IMG/VR virus record: IMGVR_UViG_3300020463_000063
Span: 1 to 34,141 of that record
Source: a virus
Direction: 5' to 3' (one strand)
DNA length: 34,141 nt
Below the pieces are notes generated by a model that saw nothing but the letters and a program-made list of their open reading frames with translations, did not search any database and was not told where the DNA came from. Position 1 is the stretch's first letter. Every line of letters begins with the position of its first letter. The translations under genes and the position numbers were made by a program. This document shows, piece by piece, positions 1,942-34,141 of this stretch.

Positions 1942-1949
1942 TATAAATA
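1942..1949 (+). promoter_or_regulatory. T4-type late promoter motif before gp25 gene
   Basis: TATAAATA, a perfect match to the T4 late consensus, lies in the 21-base gap between the PAAR and gp25 genes. It ends eight bases before the gp25 ATG. At normal T4 spacing the transcript would begin only a few bases before the ATG, giving a nearly leaderless message. Confidence 0.55.
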
Positions 1950-14400: not shown

Positions 14401-17400
14401 GAAATTCCAAGTTATACCTCTGATACGACAGGAGAAAAATTTGAATTAAGAGATTGTTTAGATTTTAGACCTAGAGTTGATGACGCAAGTACATTTGACT
14501 TTGGTGGTGATGACCGTACTTTTGATGGTGCAGGTGCTTCAACACTTGACATGCCAAGATTTGGTTCAGACATAACAGCAGATTTAGAATTTTACTTAAA
14601 TAGAATTGATAAACTATTCTTAACAAGAGAAGGCCAATTAAAAGTTATAAAAGGTGCTTCAGATTTAAACCCAATACAACCTACTAATTTAGATGGTCAC
14701 ATGTTGTTAGCAACATTAAATATTCCTTCTTACACTTTATCTACAGATGAAGTTGATATTGAAAAAGAAGATAATAGAAGATATACTATGAGAGATATAG
14801 GTAAATTGGAAAATAGAATTCAAAATGTTGAATACTACACTCAATTATCTCTATTAGAAGCTGATGCTCAAAACTTGCAAATACAAGATGAAAACGGATT
14901 AGATAGATTTAAAAATGGATTTATTGTTGACAATTTTACAGGTCATAATATTGGTGATGTACAAAATAATGATTATAAATTATCTATTGATAGGTCAAGA
15001 GGTGAGGCAAGAACACTATTTAATGAGGATGTAGTAGAGTTAGGTGAATTTGATGATGACGGTACTTCTATTATTACAACAGATAGAACAGATGGCGCTT
15101 ATCAAAAAACTGGTGATTTATTAACATTACCATATACAGAAACACCTTACATCTCTCAAACATTTGCTTCAAAAACAGAAAACTTAAATCCATTTTTAGT
15201 ATTTAATTGGATAGGTGATATAGATTTAAATCCACCAGTTGATGAATGGAAAGAAACTAGAAGAGCGCCAGAGGTTGTTGCTAATGTATTTGGTTCTTTT
15301 GATAATATGGCTTTAGCCAGAGGTTTAGATAATACAAGTATTACAGAAATACCTGTAGGTACAGAATGGAATGAATGGCAAGACCAATGGACAGGAAACC
15401 CTAGAACAGGAGGTCGTTGGACTTCAGGTGACCTGATTATGCAAACAACAACTAGTGATGTTAGACAAACTAGAACAGGAATTAGAACAAGAATAGTTCC
15501 TCAAACAGTAAGACAAAGTTTAGGTGATAGAGTAATATCAATTGGTTTTGTTCCGTTTATTAGAAGTAGAACAATAGGATTTCAAGGATATGGTTTAAGA
15601 CCAAATGTAAGAGTTTATCCTTTCTTTGATAATATAGATATTTCAACTTATGTAACGCCAGATGGCGGTTCATTAGGAGGTAACCTTGTAACAGATTCTA
15701 CAGGTTATGTAAAAGGTGAATTTGCAATACCTGACCCAAACAATGACGCAAATCCAAGATGGCGTACAGGTAAGAGAGTTTTCAGATTAACTAGTTCATC
15801 AATAAATTCACAGGATAAAACAAATGTTGCTACTTCAGCTGAAGGAGATTATGACGCTAAAGGTTTATTAGAAACTGTACAAGAAGCAATTATCTCAACA
15901 AGAGAACCAAGAACAGAAAGATTAAATGTAACTGATTCACAAACTATTCAAAGAAATGCAAACAGAGTTGTTGGTAGAGTTCCAAGACAAGAAAATAATG
16001 ATGATAATAACAGAGGTGACCCATTAGCACAATCTTTTGTTGTTGATGTTGAAGATGGACTATTTGTAACAAGTATCAATACTTTCTTTGCTACAAAATC
16101 ATCAACACTTCCTGTTAAAGCAGAAATTAGAAATATGGTTAATGGATATCCAGGACCTAAAGTTTTACCTTTTGCACAAAAATGGTTAAACCCTGGTGAT
16201 ATTAATGTAAGTACAGACGCAACAGCAGTTACAACATTTACATTCCCATCTCCTGTTTATCTAAAAGAAGGTGTTGAATATTGTATAGTTTTATATACAG
16301 ACTCACAGGATTATACAGCTTATGTTGCTAGATTAGGTGAGAAAAATTTAGGTTCTAATAGAACAATATCATCACAACCTAATATGGGTATCTTATTTAA
16401 ATCAGCGAACAATAGAACATGGAACGCTGAACAAATGGAAGATTTAAAGATTACAATTAATAAAGCAGTATTCAGTACATCTACTCAAGGTCAAATAACT
16501 TTATGTAATAAAGATTTGCCTTCAAGAACATTAGCAAATAATCCTATTAGAACATTTAATGGTACAGGTTTAATTAGAATTTTCCATCCAAATCACGGAA
16601 TGCATAGTGCAAATGATAATGTTACAATTGCAGGTGTGGTTTCAGGAACATATAACGGCATTGCTCACTCATCAATTAACGGCACATATACATCAATTAA
16701 AAATATTACTTTAGATAGTTATGATATTGAAACAGGTGCAACAGCAAATGCTACAGGTGATGTTGGTGGAATTACTGTAACTGCTACTCAAAATAGATTG
16801 TTTGATGTAATGCAATTACAAATAGGACAAGTAACACATCCAGGTACAACATTAGGTACTACATTAAGAACAACAACAGGTCGTTCAGTTCATGGTTCAG
16901 AAAGTCCTTTTGTTGCTGAAGGAGTTTCATCTGCTAAGAATGTTGTATTAGGTGATAATTTATACTTTACAGAACCAAGAATGGTTGCTAGTGCTATAAA
17001 TGAAACAAATGAAATGTCAAATGGCAAATCTATGTTTGTTCAAATGACATTAAATTCTTCTAATGCAAACTTGTCGCCTGTTATTGATTTACAAAGAGTT
17101 AATGCATTTGCCATATCAAATAGATTAAATCAACCTGCCGTAACATCAACAGATACATTTACAGGAGATGGTTCAACAACAGCATTTACTTTATCAAGTA
17201 CACCTACAAGTGTTCATTTATTATCTGTTAAAGTATCAGGTTTACCTAAAAAACCAGTAGATGACTTTACAGTTTCAGGAACAACTTTAACCTTTGGTGT
17301 TGCACCGGCTAGTGGCGCAAAAATTAATGCTAAGTTATCAAATACTGTAGATTATGAAGATGACACAGCACCAGAAGGTGGTTCTTCAGCAGGTTCTTAT

Positions 17401-20410: not shown

Positions 20411-20893
20411 ATGGAAATTAATACAGATAATTATATCTCTGCTACATTTTTAGAAGCAGGTAGAGATAATATTGAGGTGCTAGTAAGAAGTGATGATGGT
20501 AAAAAAGTAATACCTCACATTATTAAATATGATGAAAGACACCCCGATTGTCAGCAACTATTAAAAATTGTAAATGTAGACCAATTACATGAAAATACAA
20601 ATATTAGAGTAAAAGACGAAAGAGCAAAATTTGAAGAGCAGGTAATGGCCATTGCTAAAAAAGATGGTTTAGTATTTGATAAAGGTACTCACGATTCAAA
20701 ATTCTTTCCTACTCTTGTCAGAGGTTTATTTGATAATGGCCATAATGAAGACCATTTATTTGCAATTAAATTAGCGTTGTTTGAATATGACCCAATAAGA
20801 GATTCAGATAATAAAGAAGCAAAAGATAAGATTAGAGCCGGTACTACAAAAGCGGAAGTTATTGCAGCTGCAATTGAATTACTTGCGAAGTAA
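20411..20893 (+). CDS. Conserved hypothetical protein, 160 aa
   Basis: Soluble acidic protein I cannot name. Residues 1-50 look like beta strands (ISATFLEAGRDNIEVLVRSD), 70-110 are helical, and the end is a helix (TTKAEVIAAAIELLAK). GGTGG before the start lies inside the end of the epimerase gene; the gap is one base. It is the last gene of the plus-strand block, and its final 15 bases overlap the 3' end of the convergent glycosyltransferase gene. Position at the end of the structural genes suggests a minor virion or assembly protein. Confidence 0.7.
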   Translation: MEINTDNYISATFLEAGRDNIEVLVRSDDGKKVIPHIIKYDERHPDCQQLLKIVNVDQLHENTNIRVKDERAKFEEQVMAIAKKDGLVFDKGTHDSKFFPTLVRGLFDNGHNEDHLFAIKLALFEYDPIRDSDNKEAKDKIRAGTTKAEVIAAAIELLAK

Positions 20894-21454
20894 ATAGTCA
20901 GACCACCATCCAGTCCAACCTTTTTCTAAAACATGTTGCATTTGACCACATGTAACTACATTATGAAACTCTGGTTTTTCATATAAGTATTTTTTTATAG
21001 AAGGACATACTCTTTCGTATGTTGCATAATAAGGCAATTCTTTAAAGTAAAATTCATCACTACCTCTATAATATTTTTTTAAGAATACATCTTTATTAGA
21101 ATTAAATTTTTCCCAAATAAAAGAAACATCACCTGTCCAACTTACAATAGACGAGTTTAAAGGTGTATGTGCTGGTTTTCTCCACCACTTATCATCTAAT
21201 AGAGTAAAAGAGTTTCTATATAAGTTTGGTAATTTTCCAAATATTATCATGTCTAAATCAAAATATAAATTTTGACCGTCTTTAAACCAATCATACATTT
21301 GAAATTTATTAAACCAATTACCAAATAGGTCTTTATCTACAACTTGAAAATCATCATATTCTATACCCGAATATTTGTCAATCATATATTTTAAATTGTC
21401 AATATGCCATTCAGTATATTTTTCACCAAACTTACAACAAATTATTCTTCTCAT
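20879..21454 (-). CDS. GT-A type glycosyltransferase-like protein, 191 aa
   Basis: Has the features of a small metal-dependent GT-A glycosyltransferase: basic start MRRIICCKFG, a predicted strand and helix, and the DxD-type motif LYFDLDMIIFG with Asp66 and Asp68, which normally binds the nucleotide-sugar and Mn2+. SWTGDVSFIW and YRGSDEFYF follow. The family is typically 250-300 aa, so this is compact. Its start overlaps the preceding kinase-like gene by four bases (ATGA). It is the last gene of the fourteen-gene leftward operon and overlaps the converging plus-strand gene by 15 bases. It resembles the 246-aa glycosyltransferase at 22769-23509. Acceptor unknown. Confidence 0.7.
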   Translation of the reverse strand: MRRIICCKFGEKYTEWHIDNLKYMIDKYSGIEYDDFQVVDKDLFGNWFNKFQMYDWFKDGQNLYFDLDMIIFGKLPNLYRNSFTLLDDKWWRKPAHTPLNSSIVSWTGDVSFIWEKFNSNKDVFLKKYYRGSDEFYFKELPYYATYERVCPSIKKYLYEKPEFHNVVTCGQMQHVLEKGWTGWWSDYLLRK

Positions 21455-21900
21455 TTAATTAAACTCATATGTAAATTGTTTATAGTATTTGTAAATTTAC
21501 CTATTTCAAATTCGTAATGTGAAGTATTGTCAAATTTAATAGGTCTAAAAGAGTCGGGGTCTATTAATCTAATTTTATTGTCAGTAGTATATAAAAAGTT
21601 TTTTAGTTGTACATCATCATGCCAAAATAAATGACAATCTTTATGTTTAAATTTAAACATGTTACTTACGATATCAACGACTTGTTTTATTATATCTAGT
21701 TTTTGTTCAAAGGATATGGTATTAAGTATTATACAATCTTTTAAATTTTCACCTTCAATATATTCCATCTCAAAAGTATTATTGTGTACATTTTTAACTT
21801 GTACAACTCTAGGGTCAAATTTTTGATAGTCTTTGTAAACTTGATACCATATATCTATATCATAAAACGGATGTGGTCGTCTATTCCACTCTTTAATCAT
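21451..21900 (-). CDS. Kinase-like protein with minimal N-lobe, 149 aa
   Basis: Looks like the C-terminal lobe of the protein kinase / aminoglycoside phosphotransferase fold. FEMEYIEGENL (43-53) is the hinge, followed by a helix. WHDDVQLKNFLY holds the catalytic-loop pattern HxDxxxxN (His94, Asp96, Asn101), and RLIDPDSF (111-118) gives the metal-binding aspartates. Only about 40 residues precede the hinge, so the glycine-rich loop and the usual ATP lysine are absent or replaced. It may phosphorylate a sugar or lipid using an unusual nucleotide site, or be a pseudokinase. ATGA overlaps bind it to both neighbours in the operon. Confidence 0.65.
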   Translation of the reverse strand: MIKEWNRRPHPFYDIDIWYQVYKDYQKFDPRVVQVKNVHNNTFEMEYIEGENLKDCIILNTISFEQKLDIIKQVVDIVSNMFKFKHKDCHLFWHDDVQLKNFLYTTDNKIRLIDPDSFRPIKFDNTSHYEFEIGKFTNTINNLHMSLIK

Positions 21901-22772
21901 TTAATTTCAGTTACCTTAATATTTCTCTCTCTAAATGAATTAATTTTAAATTCTGCTTTATCAGGTATTAAATGTACATTACCATATGGGTCTTGCATTT
22001 CATTGCCAGCATATTTTTCAATATCAACTATCTCAACTTGCCTCATAATTTTATTAGTTCTAGGATGCCTCATTTGTCCTGTGGTGCTGTTTCTACTACC
22101 ATTAGCAGAACCAATCATTAATTCTGTTTCGTCTGATTCCCAACGAGGTCTATTTTTTTGTGGATGTCCTACACCGAGACCATAACATATTTGTTTTTTG
22201 CCGTCAATAATCTCATCAAGTATTCCTAGTTTTTTACCCCAGAAATCATCACCATTCATATCTCTATGACTTTTATTGCAACCTGTGGCAAAACCCATTT
22301 TAGCAGCTGCTCTCATTGTAAGGCCTAGAGAAATACCTATACTTACATAAGCATTGTGCCATCTATTAATATCGGTGTTTTCTTTTTTAGTACCATCGCC
22401 ATGAGCGTTATGATTTGAGTCAGGTTCTTTACCAACCCATATAATATATAAACTTGCGTTTGCTTGTGAGTTTCTCCAGGTTGATGGTGGATTTCTTCTA
22501 TGAGTTTGACCCCAAGTATATCTTGATATTTCTTGTATTACTTTTCTGTCAGCAGTCCAATAAATGTCAAAATATCCTTCATGTTGTTTTGTAGGAGCAT
22601 TTATGGCTGTCCATATCAATTCTTTAATTGAAAGTTTGTATGTATTATCGTTTACATTAAACTTATCATAATCCCAATTTCTTTGACATTTTTGTATCTC
22701 TTGTAAGACTCTTCTTTCCTCGTCCCAATCATAATACATTTGGTGGGTTATTTTAGTCCAATCAGTTGTCAT
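21897..22772 (-). CDS. Nitroreductase-like flavoprotein, divergent, 291 aa
   Basis: A nitroreductase-fold protein, normally an FMN enzyme using NAD(P)H. The substrate/FMN region is AINAPTKQHEGYFDIYWTA (57-75), and the long helix AYVSIGISLGLTMRAAAKMG (141-160) with FATGCN is the typical dimer-core helix. LGILDEI and YGLGVGHPQKNRPRW follow near 182-211. I chose the ATG at 22772, which overlaps the upstream stop as ATGA, over the TTG at 22778. It is longer and clearly different from the three other nitroreductase-like proteins in this operon, with extra segments at 90-140 and a C-terminal tail. Substrate unknown. Confidence 0.75.
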   Translation of the reverse strand: MTTDWTKITHQMYYDWDEERRVLQEIQKCQRNWDYDKFNVNDNTYKLSIKELIWTAINAPTKQHEGYFDIYWTADRKVIQEISRYTWGQTHRRNPPSTWRNSQANASLYIIWVGKEPDSNHNAHGDGTKKENTDINRWHNAYVSIGISLGLTMRAAAKMGFATGCNKSHRDMNGDDFWGKKLGILDEIIDGKKQICYGLGVGHPQKNRPRWESDETELMIGSANGSRNSTTGQMRHPRTNKIMRQVEIVDIEKYAGNEMQDPYGNVHLIPDKAEFKINSFRERNIKVTEIK

Positions 22773-23509
22773 TTCCAATACTCATTTATAAAGTTGTCTT
22801 TATATTTATGTATAGTTTTACCAACGCCTGTAAAGTGAACAACTTTAATCATTTCATTTACGCTATCCATAATCATATAATCTGTTTTACATTTTTTAGC
22901 ATATTGTTTATTTAACTCTATATTTTCTTCAAAGTTGGGTGTATATTTACCTAACCATTCTATAGGCGTTCTAATAATATTGACCTGGTGTTCTAACATT
23001 TTCCAATTTACATAGTTTTGTTCACCATAATATTTAAAATGAACATCACCATTATTGTAATATAAGTTTTGCCAATAATTAGGATTTAATATAAAGTCTT
23101 CCCAAACATATTTAAAATTGCCTGATTTAAATTTATAAAATCCACCGTTTATATCAATCAATGATTTCCAAAAATGACCATATGTAATAAATTCATTTTT
23201 CTTAACAGGATGTCCTATTAAATCATCAATGTTACCTGTAATAACTTGGTCAATATCCATGACCACTATTTCATCACCTGGATTTTGATAAGCAAATTGT
23301 GGACTAAAAAACTTTAATTTATGCCAATGTTTTTTAACATCACTTTCTTTATTGTAAGGTAATATAACATCAGCCTCAATATCTTTAGTATCACTTAAAC
23401 AGATAAACTCAAATGGTATTGTGGTATTTCTTTTTAAACTTCTATAAAATTTAGAAACATAATCTGGTGTATAGTAACCGTCAAAATATACTGTACATAT
23501 TTTAAGCAT
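22769..23509 (-). CDS. GT-A (GT8-like) glycosyltransferase, 246 aa
   Basis: Begins MLKICTVYFDGYYTPDYVSK and then FYRSLKRNT, like GT8-type enzymes. The metal-binding DxD is in IVVMDIDQVITGNIDDL (Asp85, Asp87). HWHKLKFFSP at 61-70 positions the donor, and VVHFTGVGK near 226-234 is like the C-terminal H-x-x-G-x-K element of GT8. The frame is open to 23548, but the ATG at 23509 has GGAG nine bases before it and overlaps the upstream stop by eight bases, so I use it. Fourth gene from the end of the leftward operon. Transfers a hexose-type sugar to an unknown acceptor, most likely a glycan or virion protein. Confidence 0.8.
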   Translation of the reverse strand: MLKICTVYFDGYYTPDYVSKFYRSLKRNTTIPFEFICLSDTKDIEADVILPYNKESDVKKHWHKLKFFSPQFAYQNPGDEIVVMDIDQVITGNIDDLIGHPVKKNEFITYGHFWKSLIDINGGFYKFKSGNFKYVWEDFILNPNYWQNLYYNNGDVHFKYYGEQNYVNWKMLEHQVNIIRTPIEWLGKYTPNFEENIELNKQYAKKCKTDYMIMDSVNEMIKVVHFTGVGKTIHKYKDNFINEYWK

Positions 23510-24353
23510 TATATTTTCTCCACACGGCGTCAAAGTCTTTACAAACACAATGAGCTATTTTAGTATTATCAGGCACATATCTTTGTTTATCAAAAAAATA
23601 GTGCCATTCGTTATCTAACCATTGTACATTTACATTATTAGTTTTTATTTTATAGGAAAAAATTGTTTCGTTGTCATATCTAAACATGTTAACAATATTT
23701 TCTGGATATAAACCATCCTTTTCTTTTATTAAAGTTGTCATTAAATCAATTGTGTCTTTAAATTTGCCAAAGTAATTTAATTTTAGTATATCATCTTTGT
23801 TAGCTCCTATAATGCCTGTGTTAATAACATCATTTCTAGGATTGTAACCTTGATTTAATAACATGGCGTGGCAATTAAAATACTTTGCTGACGGACTTCT
23901 TATGCCTTGACTTACGCTGTATCTGGTGTTTACCATACTATTATTATGTTTAACACAAATACCTTTTGATAAATCCCATTTGTCAAAGAATGATTCGTCT
24001 GTCATAGGTATAGCGTCAAAATCTAAATATAAGATATCGTCATATTCTTTTGCGAGTTTGTCTAATAAGTGTATCTTATAAAAATTTACAACTTCATAAC
24101 CTGTAAACATAGGAAAGTCTTTTAAAAAGTTTCTTTCAAATGTTTTATACTGTTCATCATATTCAAACATTATAAAATCAGCGTCTATAATATCGGCATA
24201 ATGTTTTTTACATTTGATTAAATCGCCATAATTTTCTTTAAAAGCCTGTATGGTTATATCAGCCTTTTCAGTTGTATCGTATTTTTGTTTAGAATCACCA
24301 TAATGTTCTTTTGCAGGCACATCAACATATAAACTATAAATTACTCTTCGCAT
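23502..24353 (-). CDS. GT-A type glycosyltransferase, 283 aa
   Basis: Cytoplasmic sugar transferase. MRRVIYSLYVDVP at the start, then a central helical region, FYKIHLLDKLAKEYDDILYL and the DxD motif in YLDFDAIPM (Asp111, Asp113). DVINTGIIGANKDDILKL near 185-202 is a typical second motif with Asn-Thr-Gly, and the tail has HCVCKDFDAVWRKY. It is of a different subgroup from the 246-aa enzyme next door, judged by spacing. It overlaps the methyltransferase gene by 13 bases and the next gene by eight. Acceptor and donor are not determinable from sequence. Confidence 0.78.
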   Translation of the reverse strand: MRRVIYSLYVDVPAKEHYGDSKQKYDTTEKADITIQAFKENYGDLIKCKKHYADIIDADFIMFEYDEQYKTFERNFLKDFPMFTGYEVVNFYKIHLLDKLAKEYDDILYLDFDAIPMTDESFFDKWDLSKGICVKHNNSMVNTRYSVSQGIRSPSAKYFNCHAMLLNQGYNPRNDVINTGIIGANKDDILKLNYFGKFKDTIDLMTTLIKEKDGLYPENIVNMFRYDNETIFSYKIKTNNVNVQWLDNEWHYFFDKQRYVPDNTKIAHCVCKDFDAVWRKYNA

Positions 24354-25042
24354 ATCTTACCTAATAAAGTAAACCTGGTGCCTCTACTATCTGTTATAGC
24401 GCCTTCTTTTAAGACTTTAAAGTTGTCAGGAAGTTGTGTTTTAAATTCTGTATTACTATGAACACAATTTATATGTGTATCAATATCAAACATATTATTT
24501 GATTGAAAGGCAAAGTAAGCTGGCGCAACTCTTTTCCACCATGCAGTTTTCCACCTTTTACCATTTTCAGGATTGATGGCGCCCCATTCTCTCATTGGTC
24601 TCATGTGTTCACAGGAGGTATTAATAAACAACGAGGCATTTGTAAATTGTTCTCTATAATTCTCAAAAATATCTCCTGTAATAAAGTCAACATTAAATCC
24701 TTTAAACAATTCATATTTTGCCCTATTAATAACATCACCATCCATGTCTATGCAGGTAATTTTTTTAACTTCATTATAAAATGCAGGTATTAATATACTA
24801 CCGTACCAACTACCAAATATAACTATTTCAGAATCTTTATTTAATATGTTAGCATTTTTTATATGTTCTATCAATAACATTTTTGATTTAAATTGATTAG
24901 GACTAAATGAATCTAAAACATCTCTTTGTCTAATTTGTTTTAATCTATTTTTATCTGTATCGTGAGTATTAACAAAATCTCTCATCTCTTGCGTAATCAA
25001 GTTATCTATAATTGTCTGTAATTGTTTTACATCTATCGCCAT
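24341..25042 (-). CDS. Class I SAM-dependent methyltransferase, 233 aa
   Basis: Residues 70-110 carry the Rossmann SAM site: IVIFGSWYGSILIP (motif I, Gly77 to Gly81), ITCIDMDGDVINRAK (acidic motif II, Asp99/Asp101), then VDFITGDIFENY (motif III). SLFINTSCEHMRPMREW near 137-153 forms the active-site wall. The N-terminal 65 residues are helical and may hold the substrate. It overlaps genes on both sides by 10-13 bases. In this setting it probably methylates a sugar, sugar acid or small-molecule intermediate. DNA methylation is unlikely, since no [DNS]PP[YFW] motif is seen. Confidence 0.8.
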   Translation of the reverse strand: MAIDVKQLQTIIDNLITQEMRDFVNTHDTDKNRLKQIRQRDVLDSFSPNQFKSKMLLIEHIKNANILNKDSEIVIFGSWYGSILIPAFYNEVKKITCIDMDGDVINRAKYELFKGFNVDFITGDIFENYREQFTNASLFINTSCEHMRPMREWGAINPENGKRWKTAWWKRVAPAYFAFQSNNMFDIDTHINCVHSNTEFKTQLPDNFKVLKEGAITDSRGTRFTLLGKICEE

Positions 25043-25713
25043 TTTATAATATCTCCAACAGGTGTTTTTATATCGCCTTCTACAATACCTCTATATTGTT
25101 TTGCTTTGCCTATTGAAACTAATAGTACAGGACTATAATCAATAAAACCTAGTTCTTTCCAAAACTTAACAGGCCTTTCAAAACATAAACAATATGATAT
25201 ATCTAAATTTTGTTCAACAACTAGTGCTGTCAAATTTGCAGTAAACAAACCTACTTCAACTGCTGTTGCGCCTAAATCTTTACTTACTTTAACTCTTTCA
25301 GCATCCATTTGTTCCATATAGTGGTTTCTTACCATTTGTTTAGTATAAAACTCATTTGCCTTTTCGTGAAGTCTTTGATTTATAATTAATAAGTATGGGT
25401 TAATGTGTATATGTTTGTAGTAAGGATTAATATGAAATGAGTAACCATCTTTATCATAAGTGGCCGTGCCATCTTCTAATGCTTCATCTTCCATTCTTTT
25501 GTGATTACTTGTAACTATATCATATACATAATCTTTTTCTTTTTGTTTATCTGGACCTAAAACATTTACGGTGTATGGAAAAACATTTTGTTTTGACGGA
25601 GTAATATCGTGTGCCATTTTTAAACAATAATCAATCAAAGACCTATCAGGTATTACATTCATATCATAAGATACCACATGTTTTCTTCTTTTTAAAACAT
25701 CTCTTATATCCAT
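25033..25713 (-). CDS. Nitroreductase-like flavoprotein, 226 aa
   Basis: Member of the FMN nitroreductase fold: MDIRDVLKRRKHVVSYD with the phosphate-binding Arg-Arg pattern, IPDRSLIDYCLKMAHDITPS, then SKQNVFPYTVNVLGPD (40-55), which matches the family's PSxxNxQPW motif. AVEVGLFTANLTALVVEQNL is the long core helix, and VLLVSIGKAKQYR near the C-terminus is the usual closing strand. GAGGA lies ten bases before its ATG, inside the preceding gene. It is a clear paralog of the genes at 25704-26375 and 31625-32239, so duplication within the island is likely. It needs a dimer; partner paralogs could form heterodimers. Confidence 0.82.
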   Translation of the reverse strand: MDIRDVLKRRKHVVSYDMNVIPDRSLIDYCLKMAHDITPSKQNVFPYTVNVLGPDKQKEKDYVYDIVTSNHKRMEDEALEDGTATYDKDGYSFHINPYYKHIHINPYLLIINQRLHEKANEFYTKQMVRNHYMEQMDAERVKVSKDLGATAVEVGLFTANLTALVVEQNLDISYCLCFERPVKFWKELGFIDYSPVLLVSIGKAKQYRGIVEGDIKTPVGDIIKWR

Positions 25714-26375
25714 TTTATAATATCCTCATAATTTGGTTTATAATCATAATCTATAGGAAAAGTTTCTCTTCTATATTTTTTAGCATGTCCTACTGTAATC
25801 ATTAAGTTAACTCTTCTATCAATAAATGGCAACTCTTTCCAATGTTCAGGACTTCTTGAAAAATTACCGGTAAATGATGTATCAATACCTTTCTCAGCTG
25901 CTAGACCTCTGAACGCCATAGCAAACATTCCTGATTCTACACATATTGGTTCTCTACTATCTTCTAATCCTTTTTCAGTACAAGGGTCAAAAAATATACC
26001 TCTTTTCCAGGCTAACTTTTGATATGTGCTAGTTAGAGTTCCTAATCTTTGTGTAATTATTAATAAGTATTGACAAGAAGTTAAGTTTGCATAGTTAACA
26101 TCTTTTCTTTCTGTGCCAGAGGCAATATCTTCAAATTCAGTATTGCCTTTATTCATTCTAGTATCATTATCACATGACTTATCATAAATTATATCTTTAT
26201 ATTTTTGATGTTCAGGTCCTAAAACATGTACTTGCCATGCAACTATATTATTTTTTGATGGCGTAACTTCATATGCATTTTTAAGTAACTCACTTATTAC
26301 ATCTTTAGATATTAAAGGTTTTGTAATATCATATTCTGTTACATGTCTAGGTTTTTTTAAATTATCAAGTATCAT
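25704..26375 (-). CDS. Nitroreductase-like flavoprotein, 223 aa
   Basis: Start chosen at ATG 26375 because MILDNLKKPRHVTEYD lines up with the starts of its two paralogs. The frame is open to 26444, and an ATG at 26396 is also possible. TPSKNNIVAWQVHVLGPE (38-55) is the FMN-binding PSxxNxQPW-type motif and is the best preserved of the three paralogs, with a Trp47. CVESGMFAMAFRGLAAEKGI is the core helix, and VNLMITVGHAKKYRR the closing strand. One base separates it from the carbamoyltransferase stop. Likely FMN-dependent oxidoreductase acting on an intermediate of the island pathway. Confidence 0.8.
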   Translation of the reverse strand: MILDNLKKPRHVTEYDITKPLISKDVISELLKNAYEVTPSKNNIVAWQVHVLGPEHQKYKDIIYDKSCDNDTRMNKGNTEFEDIASGTERKDVNYANLTSCQYLLIITQRLGTLTSTYQKLAWKRGIFFDPCTEKGLEDSREPICVESGMFAMAFRGLAAEKGIDTSFTGNFSRSPEHWKELPFIDRRVNLMITVGHAKKYRRETFPIDYDYKPNYEDIIKWI

Positions 26376-26376
26376 C

Positions 26377-27933
26377 TTACCAATAGTTTTGTTCATATTC
26401 CGGTGTCCAATGTTTAAAGTCTTGTTTAGTATGAACGAAATCATTTATAACTAATATATCTAATGCAGTTCTATTAAAAGTTCTAGTTGCCTGCCATGGT
26501 TTTTCTACAATAGGTTCTTGACAATTAAAACTAGTATTCAGTAGCATAGGTATACCAGTAATTTTATAAAACTCATTAATTAGGTCATAAAACTTTGGAT
26601 TAAATTCTCTGTTAACTGTTTGTATTCTTGCAGTACCATCAACATGAGTTACGCCTGGTATCTTATCTGATTTAACAGGACATATTCTTGACATATAAGG
26701 ACTAGGACTATTAGTGTCAAAGTATTCTTTATAACATTCTTCTAATACTGCTGGTGCAAATGGTCTAAAATCTTCTCTTAATTTTATGGTGTCATTAATA
26801 ATACTTTTGATATTAGGATTTCTAGGGTCTGCTAATATACTTCTATTACCTAATGCACGATTACCACTTTCTGACTTACCTTGAAACCAACCAACTATCT
26901 TACCATCTGCTATTGCTTGTGCTATATTTTTGTAATCAGCAATTTCTGTACCAAGATAACTATAACTTTCGCCGGCAAAAGTATTAGATTTATGTTTAAT
27001 ATTATTTAAATTATAATTAGCATGTTGATAAGTACCAATAGCTTGGCCTTCATCACCCACAGCAGGTGGTATAAAAACATTTTCATAATGTTTAGTAAAC
27101 TCTTCATTCATATAACCATTATAAGCAACACCACCAGCTATACAAAGGTTTTCGCAAGATTTTAGAGGATATACATGCTCTTTAATTCTATCCATTGTAA
27201 ATCTTTGTAATGTATATGCTAGATTGTTTACACCATGAGTTTTGATATCAAGATAATCCCATATTTTCATTTTCTTTTCTTTTATAGGACCTGATAATAT
27301 TAATTCAAATGCGTCATAGTAATATTTACTTAAACGGCCATAACCTACTTTTCCCATAAGTTTACTTGCACCTAATGTTCCGAAACCTGTTAGATTAGAA
27401 AGATTGTTCCATAACCAACCGATAGGTAACTTATCTGATAAATCAATTAAATTTTGGTCTTTGTCAAAGAATACACATCTGAATTTAGAACCTATACCAT
27501 CAATTGCTAATATGTCTGATTGTTCAAAACCGGAGTTTAAAAAAGCATAAGTGGCATGTGATTGATGGTGGTCTATAAAATAGATATTGTCTTTGTAATA
27601 TCTTTGAAATAGTTTTTTAGGATTGTAATTTAGTATTTCTTCATGCCCTTTTAATATATTATTAAACAAATGTTCTTTTGCTTTTCTAATACCACCGTAA
27701 GTATATGTAAACGCTAATATTGTATCATCTCTATGATGAAAAAACTCATCTATAAACTTATCATTTAATCTATAATCAGCAGGATTCATCACATTTGATT
27801 GATGAGCATATGCTTCAGTATGAATAGGTAAGTTATGTTTAAATCTAGTTAATCTTTCCATTTGACGGTGATATACTCCGTCATATGTATTGTGGTCGTG
27901 TAGATTTAAAGCAACTGAAAATATTTTATGCAT
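26377..27933 (-). CDS. NodU/CmcH-type carbamoyltransferase, 518 aa
   Basis: Transfers a carbamoyl group from carbamoyl phosphate, via carbamoyl-adenylate, to a hydroxyl on a sugar or small molecule, as in NodU, CmcH and TobZ. Two domains are seen. The N-terminal half has the YFIDHHQSHATYAFL metal/adenylate element (His122, His123, His127) and LAIDGIGSKF. The C-terminal YrdC-like half carries GWFQGKSESGNRALGNRSIL, ADPR, REDFRPFAPAVL and LLNTSFNCQEPIVEKP. Length is near the family usual (about 550), so it is probably active. Its start overlaps the radical SAM gene by eight bases. Related genes occur in other marine myoviruses. Inferred job: O-carbamoylation of the glycan or metabolite built by this operon. 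Confidence 0.93.
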   Translation of the reverse strand: MHKIFSVALNLHDHNTYDGVYHRQMERLTRFKHNLPIHTEAYAHQSNVMNPADYRLNDKFIDEFFHHRDDTILAFTYTYGGIRKAKEHLFNNILKGHEEILNYNPKKLFQRYYKDNIYFIDHHQSHATYAFLNSGFEQSDILAIDGIGSKFRCVFFDKDQNLIDLSDKLPIGWLWNNLSNLTGFGTLGASKLMGKVGYGRLSKYYYDAFELILSGPIKEKKMKIWDYLDIKTHGVNNLAYTLQRFTMDRIKEHVYPLKSCENLCIAGGVAYNGYMNEEFTKHYENVFIPPAVGDEGQAIGTYQHANYNLNNIKHKSNTFAGESYSYLGTEIADYKNIAQAIADGKIVGWFQGKSESGNRALGNRSILADPRNPNIKSIINDTIKLREDFRPFAPAVLEECYKEYFDTNSPSPYMSRICPVKSDKIPGVTHVDGTARIQTVNREFNPKFYDLINEFYKITGIPMLLNTSFNCQEPIVEKPWQATRTFNRTALDILVINDFVHTKQDFKHWTPEYEQNYW

Positions 27934-28753
27934 TTAATAACCTCGCATATTTACTCATAGGAAAATGACCTTTTGGTTGTACCCATTCAGTACAAGTCTT
28001 ACAATAACTTTCATATTTAAATAATCTAAAGTTCATCATTTTATCTATGTTCTCCTGTGTCAACTCAAATGCTCTTGATAGTTCTTTATTGTTAGCAAAT
28101 TTTTTACTACAATGTACAATGTGTCTTTTTTCAAAATCTATAACAGGTACCATTGGAAAAGCTGCACACATTTTCCTATCTATCTCAGCCGCTTGTATAA
28201 CATCTGTAAACTCTGGCGACCTGCCATTAAATGCTTTCCACATAGTATTCTTATGGTCTAATTTCTTTAATACATCTGGATATTTGTCTTTGTATTTAAA
28301 ATAGTTTGGTGTTCTTACAACTACATTATAATTATTAAAATCATTCTCTGGTACAAAATCGCCATAGTTACCTAGTTTAGTTACTTCATGTTCATACCAA
28401 TCTAATATATTGTGTTCAACATATAATATATCTTTATCTTCTAGTATATGAGGATATCTTTTACGAACAAATGAATTGGATAATACTGAACATACATGAT
28501 TTGGATTCTTTTTTATTTCATTGATAACATCATCTAAATTCTTTATGAGACCTGGTTCACCACCTAATAAATTAACTCTGATAGAATATTTTTTTAAATA
28601 ACCAAGTGTCTGTCTTAAAAAATCCATATCAACTGTTAAGTTACGCATTTCTAAAGTGTAACTAGTACAATAATGGCAATTCTTATTGCAAGACATTGAT
28701 AAGAAAAAATCAATGGCTAAATAATTATCTTGTATTTCTTGTAAGGTTTTCAT
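27926..28753 (-). CDS. Radical SAM enzyme, 275 aa
   Basis: Cleaves S-adenosylmethionine to a 5'-deoxyadenosyl radical. The cluster motif CNKNCHYC (Cys22, Cys26, Cys29) is the canonical CxxxCxxC, followed by LLGGEPGL (62-69), the SAM-binding GGEP motif. Further cysteines in KMCAAFPM, HIVHCSKKF and the C-terminal CKTC (251, 254) could ligate an auxiliary cluster, as in SPASM/Twitch enzymes. I use the ATG at 28753; a TTG at 28771 would add six residues. It overlaps the aminotransferase gene by 29 bases. It needs a low-potential electron donor; the phage ferredoxin is a candidate. Substrate unknown, perhaps a sugar or peptide of this pathway. Confidence 0.88.
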   Translation of the reverse strand: MKTLQEIQDNYLAIDFFLSMSCNKNCHYCTSYTLEMRNLTVDMDFLRQTLGYLKKYSIRVNLLGGEPGLIKNLDDVINEIKKNPNHVCSVLSNSFVRKRYPHILEDKDILYVEHNILDWYEHEVTKLGNYGDFVPENDFNNYNVVVRTPNYFKYKDKYPDVLKKLDHKNTMWKAFNGRSPEFTDVIQAAEIDRKMCAAFPMVPVIDFEKRHIVHCSKKFANNKELSRAFELTQENIDKMMNFRLFKYESYCKTCTEWVQPKGHFPMSKYARLLNA

Positions 28754-29990
28754 AAAATTTATTAAACGCAATCTTTAATTTTCTTTTACTTTTAAAAGAT
28801 ACATCTTGAATATAACCTGGCGTTTGATAAGATTTCTCAATTATATAATCATATATATCTTCAGTTTCTTCATTAACAAGACCTTTATCAAACATGTCAT
28901 CTCCTAATACTCTTTTCATATTTGTTAAAAATCTATTATCTTCATGTTCTAGTAATATTGTAATTGAATTTATAACTCTATCAACCTCATCTCTTGTCAT
29001 AAAAGGATTGATAGGTAAAGACAAGATGGTATCACAAACCATATTTGTAACAAACAAACTATCTTTTCTATGTTCTATATTATTATACATTTTGTTTTCT
29101 GATATAGGTTTAGGATAATGAACATCAAAACCAAGTTTTTCTTTTACTCTATCTCTAACCTCTCTATTCTTAAATCTAACAACATATTTGTGATAATTAT
29201 GATTTAGACCATCAGGTGTTTTTTGTATAATTGCATAATCTTTTAATTGTTTATCATATTGTCTTGCTACTAATTGTCTACCTTCAATATACTTGTCTAA
29301 TTTTTTTAGTCTATGATTAATTACTTCAGCATTGAGTAATAACATTTTAGAATTATATCCTAGTATTTCACGGTCACCATGCTTTCTTAATTTCTTAAAT
29401 ATTTCAGTATCGCCATCTGTAACAATCGCTCCACCTCCTGCTATGCCTGATACAACTTTATTAGCGTTGAAACTCAATGTACTAATATCACCTATGGTAC
29501 CGGCGACAGCACCATTATAACTAGACCCTAAAGATTGGCAAGCGTCCTCAATAAACTGTATGTTTTTTTCTTGACAAAACTCTTTAATCTTGCTAGTATC
29601 GGACATATTACCAAATAAGTGAGGATATATTATTGCTTTTACTTTATCAGAATACATCCTTTTAATACTGTCAATAGACATATGATAAGTGTTTATATCA
29701 ATATCACAAAATACTGGTGTTGCACCAACCATTGATATTACACTTGCAGTTGATATCCATGAGAAGTTTGTTGTTAAAACCTCATCACCTTTTCCTATAC
29801 CTAAACTTAATAAAGAAAAATGTAAAGCGTCTGTGCCACTAGCACAAGCTACAACTTTTCTACCTAATTTTTTTGATAAACTTTTTTCAAGAAATTCTAT
29901 ATTTACTTCTTGTTCTTTTTGCATTGCATTATCAAAAAGTTGTAAATATTCTTCTTTATTTTGTAAGTATTCTTTCGTCCAACCTGTCAT
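28725..29990 (-). CDS. DegT/DnrJ/EryC1/StrS-type PLP aminotransferase with C-terminal extension
   Basis: Uses pyridoxal phosphate to put an amino group on keto-sugars or similar rings. Seen: CASGTDALHFSLLSLGIGKGD (49-69), EVLTTNFSWISTASV, FIEDACQSLGS (146-156, PLP aspartate Asp149) and TLSFNANKVVSGIAGGGAI, where Lys178 is the Schiff-base lysine. The tail fold HKYVVRF and VHYPKPISENKMY match the family. After about residue 355 there is an extra segment of about 65 residues, charged and helical (DDMFDKGLVNEETED), absent from the usual 370-aa members. It overlaps the SGNH gene by 35 bases. With the epimerase it could make an amino-sugar donor for the glycosyltransferases. Confidence 0.9.
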   Translation of the reverse strand: MTGWTKEYLQNKEEYLQLFDNAMQKEQEVNIEFLEKSLSKKLGRKVVACASGTDALHFSLLSLGIGKGDEVLTTNFSWISTASVISMVGATPVFCDIDINTYHMSIDSIKRMYSDKVKAIIYPHLFGNMSDTSKIKEFCQEKNIQFIEDACQSLGSSYNGAVAGTIGDISTLSFNANKVVSGIAGGGAIVTDGDTEIFKKLRKHGDREILGYNSKMLLLNAEVINHRLKKLDKYIEGRQLVARQYDKQLKDYAIIQKTPDGLNHNYHKYVVRFKNREVRDRVKEKLGFDVHYPKPISENKMYNNIEHRKDSLFVTNMVCDTILSLPINPFMTRDEVDRVINSITILLEHEDNRFLTNMKRVLGDDMFDKGLVNEETEDIYDYIIEKSYQTPGYIQDVSFKSKRKLKIAFNKFYENLTRNTR

Positions 29991-30756
29991 AAATTAAATT
30001 CGCAATCGCTTTGTGTCCTTGTTTGTTTGGGTGTCCGTCTATTCTTGACATTCTTAATCCTCTAGGACTCCACCCAGGAGGTTTTATCTTATCATACAAT
30101 CTGTCCATCTTTTTGCATAATGTAAAACCACCAAATTGTTCATTTATAGGCCACCCTAAAAATCTATTTGTTTCAAGTTTATCATCATAAGATAATATAA
30201 TATCAAAACATTGTTTAATATCTCTATCAATATTACCTGTATCTTCATATACATTTGTGTAATGCATATTGTTTGGTCTAGGTGGGTTGCCATCTTCATC
30301 AAGCAAACCGGCGAGATATCCTTTAAATAATTCTAACATTTGAAAATGTAAGTATGGCACATTAAAACTTTCACATAATATTTGAAAACTCATCATGTTT
30401 CTCATAGTTCTTTTGACAAAACTAAAAACATTACCATGAGGGTCAACCATTTCATTCATCCAATAAGGGTGCTCTCTGCCTCCTTGAAAATCTTTTCTGT
30501 TACATTGTGACCAAGCAGCTACAACTAAACCTATATTTCCGTGTATTGTTTTTTTGTCTGTTAAATAGTCTAAAATAGATGAATAGATAAACTCATTACC
30601 TGAACCACTTTTTCCTAAATTTATACATTCCATATCTAATTTCTTAGCCAACAATTCTGGCCATTTAGGAAAACTTGTATCTATTTCTGGATGAAAATCA
30701 CTAATCCAATTCTTATCTGTGAAACTACAACCACTAGCTAATAATATTTTTTTCAT
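29956..30756 (-). CDS. SGNH/GDSL-type hydrolase, 266 aa
   Basis: Esterase/acyltransferase superfamily. The catalytic blocks are visible in order: LLASGCSFT with Ser11 (block I), INLGKSGSGNE (45-54, Gly block II), AAWSQCNRKD (80-89, Asn block III region), and RIDGHPNKQGHKAI (238-251) with Asp240 and His242. A SWPELLAKKL-like segment near 30-40 is usual in this subgroup. There is no signal peptide, so it works in the cytoplasm or within the virion. Such enzymes add or remove O-acyl groups on polysaccharides. It overlaps its neighbours by 23 and 35 bases. The specific substrate is not shown. Confidence 0.8.
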   Translation of the reverse strand: MKKILLASGCSFTDKNWISDFHPEIDTSFPKWPELLAKKLDMECINLGKSGSGNEFIYSSILDYLTDKKTIHGNIGLVVAAWSQCNRKDFQGGREHPYWMNEMVDPHGNVFSFVKRTMRNMMSFQILCESFNVPYLHFQMLELFKGYLAGLLDEDGNPPRPNNMHYTNVYEDTGNIDRDIKQCFDIILSYDDKLETNRFLGWPINEQFGGFTLCKKMDRLYDKIKPPGWSPRGLRMSRIDGHPNKQGHKAIANLIYDRLDERILTK

Positions 30757-31624
30757 GTCTAATCTTCAAAATCTTTTCTATAAGAATATTTATATTGTCA
30801 GAATATATCTTTTTTGTAGGAACAGGTCTCTTCATATAAACAGGACCACCATCCTTTTTGTTTTTATCTCTTAAATAAATAATTTCTTTACCTAACCATT
30901 TACATTCTTGCAATAATCTAGGTGCTGGGTCAAAGTAGGTCTTTGTATAAACATATGTTTTAAATGTTCCTAAAAGGTTTTTTACTGGAGCTATTATATT
31001 ATTTAAATTTTTATCTAGGTAATCATGGTCATAAGACAATATACCATGAGATGGATATTTGTCAATATGTTTCATAACTTCCTTATAATATATTTCATTT
31101 GTACCTAAAAATAAGTAATCAAATTTTATATCATCAACAACTGGTTTATATACACTAAAGTTTATCATCTTTTCAAATTGAGTACCAACACCGTTTTTGT
31201 AAACTTCATAATCGCATAGGTCATATATTTTATCTACATTAAAATAATCCATTGCAAACGGCCATTCATCATTATGATTTTCAGCATATACTGATATTAA
31301 ATTACAATGAAATAATAAATGTAAAGTTAGTAATTGATTTTTTGTATAATCTGCTCTATCTTTATAAGGTAAAGTTAACATGCTTCTACCCATGATTAAA
31401 GATATATCATCTGAATTTGGCGTATATTCATCAAACACAATAGGTTGATAAGGCGCAACATATTTTTCTTTTATGTTATCCAGGTAATCTTGTTTACTAA
31501 ATTTGTGATTAGTTATTACAATAACTCTACTTGATATACCTACAGAATTTAGGTAACAACAATGTTCATAACTATAACAGAATAAACCATCACTAGGTTT
31601 ACTCGTAACAACAATATTAATCAT
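30734..31624 (-). CDS. Putative GT-B type glycosyltransferase, 296 aa
   Basis: Only weak motifs are visible, so this is a tentative call. The N-terminal half (MINIVVTSKPSDGLFCYSYE) and FDYLFLGTNEIYYKEVMKHI (168-187) suggest two Rossmann-type lobes. TYVYTKTYFDPAPRLLQECK (223-242) resembles the donor-binding region of GT-B enzymes, where an E/D near a PR pair holds the sugar nucleotide, followed by GKEIIYL and KKDGGPVYMKR. No DxD motif is apparent. It abuts the upstream nitroreductase-like gene without a gap and overlaps the SGNH gene. The other possibility is a sugar-modifying enzyme of unrelated fold. Confidence 0.6.
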   Translation of the reverse strand: MINIVVTSKPSDGLFCYSYEHCCYLNSVGISSRVIVITNHKFSKQDYLDNIKEKYVAPYQPIVFDEYTPNSDDISLIMGRSMLTLPYKDRADYTKNQLLTLHLLFHCNLISVYAENHNDEWPFAMDYFNVDKIYDLCDYEVYKNGVGTQFEKMINFSVYKPVVDDIKFDYLFLGTNEIYYKEVMKHIDKYPSHGILSYDHDYLDKNLNNIIAPVKNLLGTFKTYVYTKTYFDPAPRLLQECKWLGKEIIYLRDKNKKDGGPVYMKRPVPTKKIYSDNINILIEKILKIRHEKNIIS

Positions 31625-32239
31625 TTACTCCAACCAATTAATAATTTCATTCACCTCTGGTTTATACTCATCAGGTTCTTTAATATATTTTTCATCTACA
31701 GATTCTTTTGACCTGTATCCTAGTTGCATACTAAAAATCAATTTATCATCAAGAAAGTACAATTGATTTTCTTTGTCATTCTTAAAGCATAACAAATACG
31801 CTACATCAATGTCGTGTTCCATACATAGAGCAGTTAATGTGGTGCTAAACATTCCTACTTCAATAACTGAATCTCTACAATCTTTATAACTTTTAGGTTC
31901 AGTACATTCATATACATGACCTCTGGAAATTTTATTTAAAACCGATGGATTAGGTTCAAGAACAAGTCTATGTGTAAAACATATAACATAAGGTGCAAAT
32001 ATATTATCGTTTGAATAACCACCAGTATTTTTATCTGATAGTTTTTTTAATTCAGTTCTTTCGTCTATTCTATCTGGACCTAATATCGTAACTTTATATG
32101 GCATTAAACTTTGTTTAGAGGCCACCAGTTTATATGTTTTGTTAATGAGATTTTTTACCAACATCTTATCAGGTATATTTTCATTATCAAACAGTCTAAT
32201 CTGTTTTCTTTTTATTAATAAACTTTCCACGGTATCCAT
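31625..32239 (-). CDS. Nitroreductase-like flavoprotein, 204 aa, first gene of the operon
   Basis: Paralog of the genes at 25033-25713 and 25704-26375: MDTVESLLIKRKQIRLFD, NIPDKMLVKN, then VASKQSLMPYKVTILGPD (39-56). IEVGMFSTTLTALCMEHDID is the core helix and LIFSMQLGYRSKES the closing part, here degenerate (no GHAKKYR-type end). The FMN-motif proline is replaced by Ala (VASK rather than TPSK), so it may be inactive or a structural partner for a paralog. The minus strand reads AGGAAC just before the ATG, directly after the palindromic late promoter. It heads the fourteen-gene operon. Confidence 0.75.
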   Translation of the reverse strand: MDTVESLLIKRKQIRLFDNENIPDKMLVKNLINKTYKLVASKQSLMPYKVTILGPDRIDERTELKKLSDKNTGGYSNDNIFAPYVICFTHRLVLEPNPSVLNKISRGHVYECTEPKSYKDCRDSVIEVGMFSTTLTALCMEHDIDVAYLLCFKNDKENQLYFLDDKLIFSMQLGYRSKESVDEKYIKEPDEYKPEVNEIINWLE

Positions 32240-32242
32240 GTT

Positions 32243-32260
32243 CCTATTTATATAAATAGG
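32243..32260. promoter_or_regulatory. Bidirectional late promoter in an 18-bp perfect palindrome
   Basis: CCTATTTATATAAATAGG is a perfect palindrome in the divergent gap. Each strand reads TATAAATA (plus 32251-32258; minus 32252-32245), the T4 late consensus. It points left to the fourteen-gene operon and right to the oxygenase gene. Overlap of the two boxes means only one may be used at a time. Confidence 0.65.
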
Positions 32261-32278
32261 AGGAGTGAGGTTTAAAAA

Positions 32279-32896
32279 ATGAGTTATAATAGTTTATTAT
32301 CTTTTGGTGATTTGATACCTTTAAAATTAAAGTGTGATGTCAAGAAGTTATTTGACGAAACAAAAGAGTTCGTCTATCTAAAATACAATCCAAAAAAAGA
32401 TATAGAAAGATATGGTTTAAGTATTACCAGTTTAGATGGTTCTCTAAATGGTATAGATTTAGATTCAATAAAAGAATATAATAAAGAGAACAATACTAAC
32501 TATGATGAATTAAGTTTTAATGAATTAACAAGCGTATATTACGATAGTGAGGAAATTCAAAAAATAGTTAATCCTTTTTTAGGTCATATCGGCAGGTCTC
32601 ATATACTTCATTTACCTGAAGGTGGTTATTTTCCACCTCATAGAGATTTGCCTGTCTATGTTGAAGAACAAAATAGTTTAAGAATACTAGTGCCTTTGAA
32701 AGGTTGTAATCCACCGGACATGTATTTTATGTATGAAGATAAACCTTTACATTTTGAACACGGTAGAGCCTATTTTTTAAACACTAATAAAGCACACAAT
32801 TTATTTTCTTTTAAAGAAAGTTATATGATTGTTTTAAATATTAAAACAAGTGAAGAAATTTACAATATTATTGGCAACAATTTTCAGGCGAGATAA
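32279..32896 (+). CDS. 2-oxoglutarate/Fe(II) oxygenase-like protein, 205 aa
   Basis: A double-stranded beta-helix oxygenase candidate in the aspartyl/asparaginyl hydroxylase style. HILHLPEGGYFPPHRDLP (108-125) carries the metal HxD (His121, Asp123). LRILVPLKG follows, then FEHGRAYFLNTNKAHNLFSF with the distal His173 and Ser/Arg positions for 2-oxoglutarate. The length fits this group. The first 90 residues are charged and likely substrate-binding. GGAGGAG and GAGG lie upstream of the ATG. Marine phages often carry such enzymes, whose targets are mostly unknown; here it may hydroxylate an island product or a protein. First gene rightward from the palindrome. Confidence 0.8.
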   Translation: MSYNSLLSFGDLIPLKLKCDVKKLFDETKEFVYLKYNPKKDIERYGLSITSLDGSLNGIDLDSIKEYNKENNTNYDELSFNELTSVYYDSEEIQKIVNPFLGHIGRSHILHLPEGGYFPPHRDLPVYVEEQNSLRILVPLKGCNPPDMYFMYEDKPLHFEHGRAYFLNTNKAHNLFSFKESYMIVLNIKTSEEIYNIIGNNFQAR

Positions 32897-32899
32897 ATA
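32892..32899 (+). promoter_or_regulatory. Late-promoter-like motif before desaturase gene
   Basis: GATAAATA overlaps the oxygenase stop codon and ends five bases before the desaturase ATG. The intervening GGAAT also looks like a ribosome site for the same ATG. Either a short-leader late promoter or a chance overlap of an AT-rich stop with a Shine-Dalgarno. Confidence 0.35.
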
Positions 32900-32904
32900 G
32901 GAAT

Positions 32905-33555
32905 ATGACATTAACAATAGCAATATTACTAGGCATTTTGTGGTCTCAAATTATATCACATTTTGGTGCTAGCATATTATTACATAGACATTATTGCCAC
33001 AATCAATTTAAAGTACCTGTATGGTTTGAAACAATTGGTTTAGCAATGTTGATGATAGCATGTATTAGAACACCAATAGGATGGATTGCGAGTCACCGTA
33101 TGCACCATAAACATTCAGACGGACCAGAGGATCCACATGCAGCTAAACATGTAGGATTTTGGAAAGTTTTATTTACTACATGGGATATAAAAAATATACC
33201 TATGACATATGCGAGAGATTTGTATAAAAATCCTAGATTAGTTTTTTGCCACAAATACTGGTTACATATATTAGTAAGTGTTAATATAGTAAGTTTTTTA
33301 ATCAGTCCTTACTTTTGGGTGGCCTTTTGTGCCGTACCATTTATCTTTGCAAAGATAGGTTTTGGATTATTAAATACAATAGGACATAATACACCAGGTG
33401 GTGCTAATGTTCCTTGGTTGAATTTATTTATTGCAGGTGAAGGCTATCATAAAAATCATCACGAAAACTTTAAAAGAGTTAGATTACATAAGTTTGATAC
33501 TGGTGGTTGGTTAGCTGAAAAATTATTTTATGACAAAAAAAGAAAAAATACTTAA
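32905..33555 (+). CDS. Membrane fatty acid desaturase (acyl-CoA/lipid delta-9 type), 216 aa
   Basis: Di-iron enzyme that puts double bonds in fatty acyl chains, in the membrane. The three His boxes are present: HRHYCH (27-32), HRMHH (64-68) and HKNHH (182-186), matching the HxxxxH / HxxHH / HxxHH set of delta-9 desaturases. HNTPGG (161-166) is a further conserved histidine site. Hydrophobic spans lie at about 4-22, 42-58, 118-134 and 137-158. At 216 aa it is short for the family (around 270-330), with trimmed ends, but no key histidine is lost. It needs electrons from ferredoxin or cytochrome b5. Eight bases separate it from the oxygenase gene. Confidence 0.9.
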   Translation: MTLTIAILLGILWSQIISHFGASILLHRHYCHNQFKVPVWFETIGLAMLMIACIRTPIGWIASHRMHHKHSDGPEDPHAAKHVGFWKVLFTTWDIKNIPMTYARDLYKNPRLVFCHKYWLHILVSVNIVSFLISPYFWVAFCAVPFIFAKIGFGLLNTIGHNTPGGANVPWLNLFIAGEGYHKNHHENFKRVRLHKFDTGGWLAEKLFYDKKRKNT

Positions 33556-34141
33556 ACAATCATTAGCGATTAGAACATTCCCTATTATTCAAGTAGAGGC
33601 AATATGTGATAACTTTAAGTACAATGATTATACAGAGGTAAAACCATTTCATTCTATAATTACAGAATGGTTAAAACCTGTCATAGACTTATCAGATTTT
33701 AAATACTTATATCCAGCAAACGGTGTTACTGAAGGCATTAACTATTGGTACATGCAAGAAGATAGAAAAATAATTAGACACAAAGATGATTATGTATGGT
33801 TGCCAGAAAGTGAAACTGGTGAAGTATTATATTTGTCAAATCCGTCATCTGCTGATGGTAATATAACAGATATACCACAAGATATTCCTGTTGTGTTAGA
33901 TATTGCACATATAGGTTCTTGTTCTAACGAAGTAAAAATAGATGTACCAGACAATGTTGAAAAAGTATTTTTCTCATTAAGTAAATGTTTTGGTTTAAGA
34001 AACTATCGTATAGGTTATTATTGGTCAAGAACACCTGATAAACAATTAGAGAGATTAATTGGTTCTGCTAAATACTATAATTATTATTCAATGAAATTAG
34101 GTGAAGAGATACTTAATAAAGTAGGGCCTACTTATGTTAAT
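33530..34141 (+). CDS. PLP-dependent aminotransferase (fold type I), cut by window end
   Basis: The first 204 residues are present; the rest lies beyond the edge. YPANGVTEGINYW (61-73) is the PLP phosphate and ring region, LSNPSSADG (102-110) the conserved NP-x-G stretch, VVLDIAHIGSCS (121-132) has the pyridine-nitrogen aspartate Asp124, and FFSLSKCFGLRNYRIGYYWS has Lys152 in the SxSKxFGLxxxRIGY pattern of class I/II aminotransferases. The ATG at 33530 lies inside the desaturase end (26-base overlap) without a clear ribosome site, suggesting coupling. It is unrelated in subclass to the DegT-type enzyme. Substrate unknown, possibly an amino acid linked to the island. Confidence 0.8.
   Translation, partial: MTKKEKILKQSLAIRTFPIIQVEAICDNFKYNDYTEVKPFHSIITEWLKPVIDLSDFKYLYPANGVTEGINYWYMQEDRKIIRHKDDYVWLPESETGEVLYLSNPSSADGNITDIPQDIPVVLDIAHIGSCSNEVKIDVPDNVEKVFFSLSKCFGLRNYRIGYYWSRTPDKQLERLIGSAKYYNYYSMKLGEEILNKVGPTYVN

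Follow-up and report, generated by a model that had tools for sequence, protein, structure and literature searches.

Gene Organization at the Junction

The window, which is the entire 34,141-nt stretch of viral DNA analysed here, carries a metabolic island alongside T4-type baseplate genes. At the protein level its gp6-type product shares 73% identity with the counterpart in Pelagibacter phage Mosig EXVC030M, and the window is assigned, from its sequence, to a T4-like pelagiphage near Mosig. Two sets of genes diverge from a 39-bp spacer delimited by ATG codons at 32239 (minus strand) and 32279 (plus strand). The leftward set, delineated from the ORF list and Pfam matches, is an operon of 14 packed ORFs (20879–32239, minus strand), the first of which (31625–32239) is nitroreductase-like by virtue of its similarity to Mosig_00082 (42% identical). 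The island that it spans includes carbamoyltransferase, radical SAM, DegT-type aminotransferase and nitroreductase-type genes, and possibly encodes a surface sugar or small-molecule pathway. The rightward set (plus strand) opens with an Asp/Arg-hydroxylase-like gene (32279–32896; 86% identical to Mosig_00081), followed by a fatty acid desaturase (32905–33555; PF00487) and a gene that runs off the window end (33530–34141), aminotransferase-like by its place in Mosig. Neither of the two junction genes has a match in Pfam or PHROG. The same two genes also diverge in Mosig, where the orthologues of the rightward genes are followed by many more genes on that strand. The three-gene unit described in the first-pass annotation is thus an artefact of the window end.

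Components of a T4-type late transcription apparatus are present in the relatives. Mosig encodes the sigma factor gp55, the co-activator gp33 and the sliding clamp gp45, as assigned by PHROG; gp55 and gp33 are likewise assigned in HTVC008M, where the clamp is annotated. No gp55 is seen in the window, which is a genome fragment.

Sequence of the Double Late Box

The spacer contains the sequence CCTATTTATATAAATAGG at positions 32243–32260, which is its own reverse complement. The first-pass annotation had described it as a perfect 18-bp palindrome, and the perfect symmetry in fact reaches 20 bp (32242–32261). Its core is formed by two overlapping –10 elements on opposite strands. An exact TATAAATA box occupies 32245–32252 on the minus strand, 5 nt from the ATG at 32239, and a second occupies 32251–32258 on the plus strand, 20 nt from the ATG at 32279. 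The two share the central TA, as also noted in the first-pass annotation, and together make up the 14-bp double box TATTTATATAAATA (32245–32258). The arrangement would correspond to two T4-type late promoters placed back to back, with 8-bp boxes that overlap by two bases.

The length of the palindrome was considered as evidence and found to be weak, since 25 of 200 shuffled versions of the window (dinucleotides preserved) contain a perfect one of 20 bp or longer. The double box itself appears in 1 of the 200. The palindrome is unremarkable in its length alone; its position and conservation are not. Perfect palindromes of 18 bp or more number three in the AT-rich window and average 0.4 in the shuffles; the two further ones, each 18 bp long, lie at 7066–7083 and 21643–21660, each within an ORF. 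A reading of the palindrome as an RNA hairpin was set aside because both predicted transcripts begin outside it. Sigma70-like sites near the junction number 4, compared with a shuffle mean of 5.0, and none coincides with the palindrome.

The TATAAATA octamer occurs six times in the window, below the chance mean of 9.3, and all six copies lie within 60 nt upstream of a same-strand ATG beginning a frame of 50 codons or more. The corresponding figure for 55 permuted 8-mers is 124 of 598 occurrences. The same box precedes the baseplate (structural) genes at 1942, 6913 and 9984. The first of these (1942–1949, plus strand) is located 8 nt from the gp25-type gene at 1958, a near-leaderless spacing; by the look of the gp6-anchored data described below, 8 nt is the commonest spacing for gp25-type relatives in marine contigs.

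Further candidate boxes lie within both units, so the dependence on the palindrome that was proposed earlier may be less than full. A second leftward TATAAATA (30787–30794, minus strand) is found inside an operon gene, 30 nt from the ATG at 30756. In the rightward unit, the box GATAAATA (32892–32899, plus strand) lies 5 nt from the ATG of the desaturase. A [GC]ATAAATA box is kept at this distance from the desaturase start in all six cases compared; in the window it overlaps the preceding stop codon, and this overlap may be an alternative reason for its conservation.

Conservation of the Junction in Relatives

Ten relatives of the rightward gene were identified in viral contigs; for the leftward gene, none was confirmed there. 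Four of the ten (L005–L008) have a divergent neighbour, and the 18-mer is kept in three of these, the fourth having a different palindrome, CATATAAATATTTATATG. Relatives with the gene and no motif, which the first-pass annotation had named as evidence against its proposal, do exist: they are the remaining six (L001–L004, L009 and L010), and every one of them is without a divergent neighbour.

Nine divergent junctions were compared, including the window itself, that of Mosig, and three (L016, L046 and L399) that were found by a motif scan and are, therefore, biased toward presence of the motif. Hydroxylase identity to the window ranges from 51 to 89% across these junctions. The 14-bp core TATTTATATAAATA is present in 8 of the 9, or in 5 of 6 when the three motif-found junctions are omitted, whereas 4 of 9 retain the CC..GG ends of the 18-mer. 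In Mosig, for example, the core is present and the flanks differ. The expectation that the palindrome would be conserved while its surroundings drift holds for the core and fails for the 18-mer. A search of IMG/VR with the whole 18-mer, considered as the conserved unit and rejected as such, gave 5 stretches, three of which are the known relatives, compared with 3 for a control palindrome. These comparisons of sequence indicate that conservation applies to the 14-bp double box as a unit and that the CC/GG flanks are dispensable.

The two sides of the double box differ in their spacing, a feature missed in the first-pass annotation. The distance from the leftward box to its ATG is exactly 5 nt in all nine junctions, despite a swap of the gene itself, which is nitroreductase-like in some junctions and encodes an unrelated protein of about 300 amino acids in others. 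On the rightward side the distance is 16, 20 or 29 nt, except in L008, where it is 5 nt and the two boxes are in crossed order. L016 and L399 have identical spacers ahead of unrelated leftward genes; here the leftward gene seems, from the sequences, to have been exchanged right at its start codon with retention of the promoter. The minus side should give a leaderless message, and we consider it the more interesting part of the junction.

Recurrence of the Double Box

Pattern scans returned at least 120 stretches each, of which 80 were made into loci and analysed. Among the viral matches listed, 15 of 80 copies of TATTTATATAAATA are flanked on each side by a start codon no more than 60 nt away, whereas a control palindrome matched in composition gives 1 of 81 (Fisher p = 1.3e-4). 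With the copies of the studied junction removed (L016, L039 and L046), the two-sided cases among the matches listed are 12 of 77 against the same 1 of 81. In the marine contigs L028, L041, L047 and L090 (core at 3658, 2444, 5018 and 4004, respectively) the double box is located between a divergent gene and a gene of 146–149 amino acids, with a spacing of 5–8 nt on the side of the latter. Going by its genome position, we take this gene to resemble T4-type head completion proteins. Four other double boxes, in L051 (756–769), L386, L389 and L390, have start codons 5–8 nt away on both sides, which by sequence predicts leaderless or near-leaderless messages in both directions.

These data bear on the possibility that a single orientation works, with the second box a by-product of the self-overlap of TATAAATA with its reverse complement and the promoter of the other unit located elsewhere. 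The shared TA makes a second box cheap to gain, and both units contain extra boxes. Yet each box is tied to its own start codon, the leftward one at an invariant distance; the 39 bp between the start codons contain no sigma70-like pair beyond chance; and the core has start codons on both sides more often than the control palindrome among the matches listed. We regard a single working orientation as rather unlikely, and two opposed late promoters as the better description of the site.

Box-to-Start Spacing and Predicted Leaderless Messages

The first base of the T4 late box lies at –13, as given in the available passages of the T4 literature (PMC2988020). The box extends to –6, and transcription begins about one turn downstream. 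By this rule, a box 5 nt before an ATG would place the transcription start on the A of that codon. We examined this spacing in five genomes, where a start was the first ATG, no more than 60 nt away, to begin a frame of 50 codons or more; boxes lacking one were dropped, which removed 95 of 246 NATAAATA boxes. The retained boxes number 37 in Mosig, 25 in HTVC008M and 31 in Melnitz. A spacing of exactly 5 nt was found for 6, 9 and 3 of them, respectively, giving 18 of 93, compared with 19 of 883 for control 8-mers (49 octamers with the letters of TATAAATA, excluding the box shifted by 1–2 bases). All 18 starts are gene starts in the annotation tables of the three phages, and the genes include the annotated DNA end protector of Mosig and HTVC008M and a like-positioned gene of Melnitz. 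ATG is the commonest codon with an open frame at this distance in each phage (the same 6, 9 and 3 cases), and GTG and TTG are absent among the codons listed for the three. By contrast, spacings of 5–9 nt are found in none of the 34 T4 pairs and none of the 24 Syn9 pairs.

A larger sample was anchored on gp6 in marine contigs and consists of the best 80 of 585 confirmed candidates. In this set, the TATAAATA spacing is 5–9 nt in 86 of 159 cases, 10–15 nt in 4 and at least 16 nt in 69; none of the 159 is below 5 nt. Most of the close spacings in this sample represent one gene, gp25: at least 13 of the 18 cases at 5 nt look like it, as judged by their first residues, and it likely dominates the 52 cases at 8 nt, because gp25 adjoins the gp6 anchor. 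A last viral scan, which allowed spacings of 3–8 nt and extends beyond T4-like phages, gave 1, 4, 10, 14, 9 and 6 cases with a short upstream open stretch at spacings of 3 to 8 nt, in that order, among the matches listed. The counts drop below 5 nt and have a broad top at 5–7 nt without a sharp peak at 5.

Ribosome-binding signals follow the same division. In the gp6-anchored loci, the stretch from box to ATG contains AGG in 0 of 18 cases at a spacing of 5 nt, 1 of 52 at 8 nt and 43 of 63 at 16–30 nt. Among ORFs of at least 150 amino acids in the three phages, AGG or GGA is found at –18 to –4 for 2 of the 15 whose box is 5–9 nt away and for 23 of the 25 whose box is 10–40 nt away. The absence of a ribosome site at a spacing of 5 nt is partly forced, because the box itself fills that stretch. 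Our reading of these sequences is that the three marine phages would make two kinds of late message, one leaderless or nearly so and one with a leader and a ribosome site, and that T4 and Syn9 would make the second kind only.

The close boxes might instead be translation signals, that is, AU-rich or AGGA-containing ribosome sites in messages that begin further upstream. An AGGA is indeed located 2 nt ahead of the leftward ATG, and GATAAATAGG at 32892 lies within an operon, at a stop codon. Against this, many of the 5-nt cases have no AGGA (GTAAC, GTCGT and TTTAT are examples), and T4 and Syn9 carry the same octamer, yet none of their 58 pairs has it at 5–9 nt. The empty range below 5 nt in the gp6-anchored set is, moreover, the edge expected if initiation at the sixth base past the box must keep the AUG whole. 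This explanation is improbable, and the spacing is better understood as that of a promoter.

Model of a Proposed Bidirectional Late Promoter

We interpret the junction, with a probability of about 0.7, as a late promoter working in both directions, with the two orientations mutually exclusive on the DNA, that would give one leaderless and one leadered message. The evidence for this reading is the double box, its conservation at the junction, a distance to the start codon that stays at 5 nt on one side but varies on the other, and the occurrence of the 5-nt class in three cultured marine relatives. The use of the site by gp55-containing polymerase, the exact transcript starts, the translation of a leaderless message and the mutual exclusion are inferred from the sequence.

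According to this model, RNA polymerase with the late sigma factor gp55, gp33 and the sliding clamp gp45 would bind in either orientation and never in both simultaneously. Leftward initiation is predicted at 32239 (minus strand), the A of the start codon, which is an ATG; the resulting leaderless message would cover the long island operon. Rightward initiation is predicted at 32264 (plus strand) by the T4 –13 rule, producing a 15-nt leader (32264–32278) in which a Shine-Dalgarno-like GAGG (32267–32270) is the likely ribosome site. The two predicted starts are 25 bp apart, and two polymerases would not fit at the site at once. In T4, late activation requires the break to lie in the DNA strand that is not transcribed, and the orientation of the clamp determines polarity (available passages of PMC2988020). 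At a symmetric promoter, we hypothesize, the orientation of the clamp would pick the direction.

That the palindrome is the operator of a dimeric DNA-binding regulator is highly improbable despite its 20-bp perfect dyad symmetry and the divergent genes on either side, because conservation covers just the two late boxes and not the outer arms (CC..GG in 4 of 9), the box order is crossed in L008, and each half corresponds to the T4 late consensus, which also stands ahead of other genes.

The observation made in the first-pass annotation is confirmed. Its interpretation was right in kind and is partly supported, and it was wrong in detail with regard to the size of the units, their dependence on the palindrome and the object of competition. 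The two directions were said to compete for the sigma factor; competition would be for the DNA site instead. If the model is true, it offers a rule for locating late units in pelagimyophages, implies that named structural genes have leaderless messages, and provides a natural symmetric promoter on which clamp-directed choice of direction could be tested.

Comparison with Known Systems

The junction resembles T4 late promoters, which in the available passages of PMC2988020 have an 8-bp TATAAATA box without a –35 element ahead of late genes, and the sigma, co-activator and clamp genes of that system are found in Mosig. T4 itself has divergent late boxes between genes 26 and 51 (L149, about 16440–16465), where the overlap is 4 bp (TATTTATAAATA) and both leaders are ordinary. 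In contrast with the junction, all 34 T4 box-start pairs are separated by at least 12 nt, and neither the 5-nt class nor the 2-bp overlap was found in T4. On the sequences compared, the 5-nt spacing appears as a feature that recurs in related marine phages and is absent from T4.

The late promoters of the cyanophages S-PM2 and Syn9 share the motif NATAAATA, as given in the available part of PMC2984593, and these phages have the same recorded virus family, Kyanoviridae; unlike the marine relatives described here, Syn9 has no box-start pair below 10 nt among its 24. For pelagimyophages, phages of the highly abundant SAR11 bacteria, the cyanophage method was unable to predict late promoters, according to the available passages of PMC7029224, and a possible reason is the presence of late boxes only 5–9 nt from the start codon. 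The Melnitz paper used a TATAAAT scan, and its available passages do not remark on spacing. The available part of the AR9 paper mentions, as a general remark, that phage transcripts are often leaderless. Within the retrieved portions of the open-licence literature on T4, Pelagibacter phages, cyanophages and pelagiphages, no description of leaderless late mRNAs or of overlapping late boxes in T4-like phages was found.

A parallel in geometry is provided by the bidirectional sigma70 promoters of Escherichia coli (Warman and others; available passages of PMC12825309), in which divergent starts flank overlapping –10 elements and the polymerases are mutually exclusive. A start spacing of 23 bp is among the common classes there, compared with the 25 bp predicted here, and by analogy the 23-bp class would share the back-to-back geometry of the phage junction. 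At five such promoters tested in that study, again from its available passages, competition is negligible at basal activity and appears on strong activation, so that exclusion limits one direction only if the other is strongly active. The phage junction differs from these promoters in its predicted use of a late sigma factor with a sliding clamp, in a fully palindromic core, and in having one side that is predicted to be leaderless.
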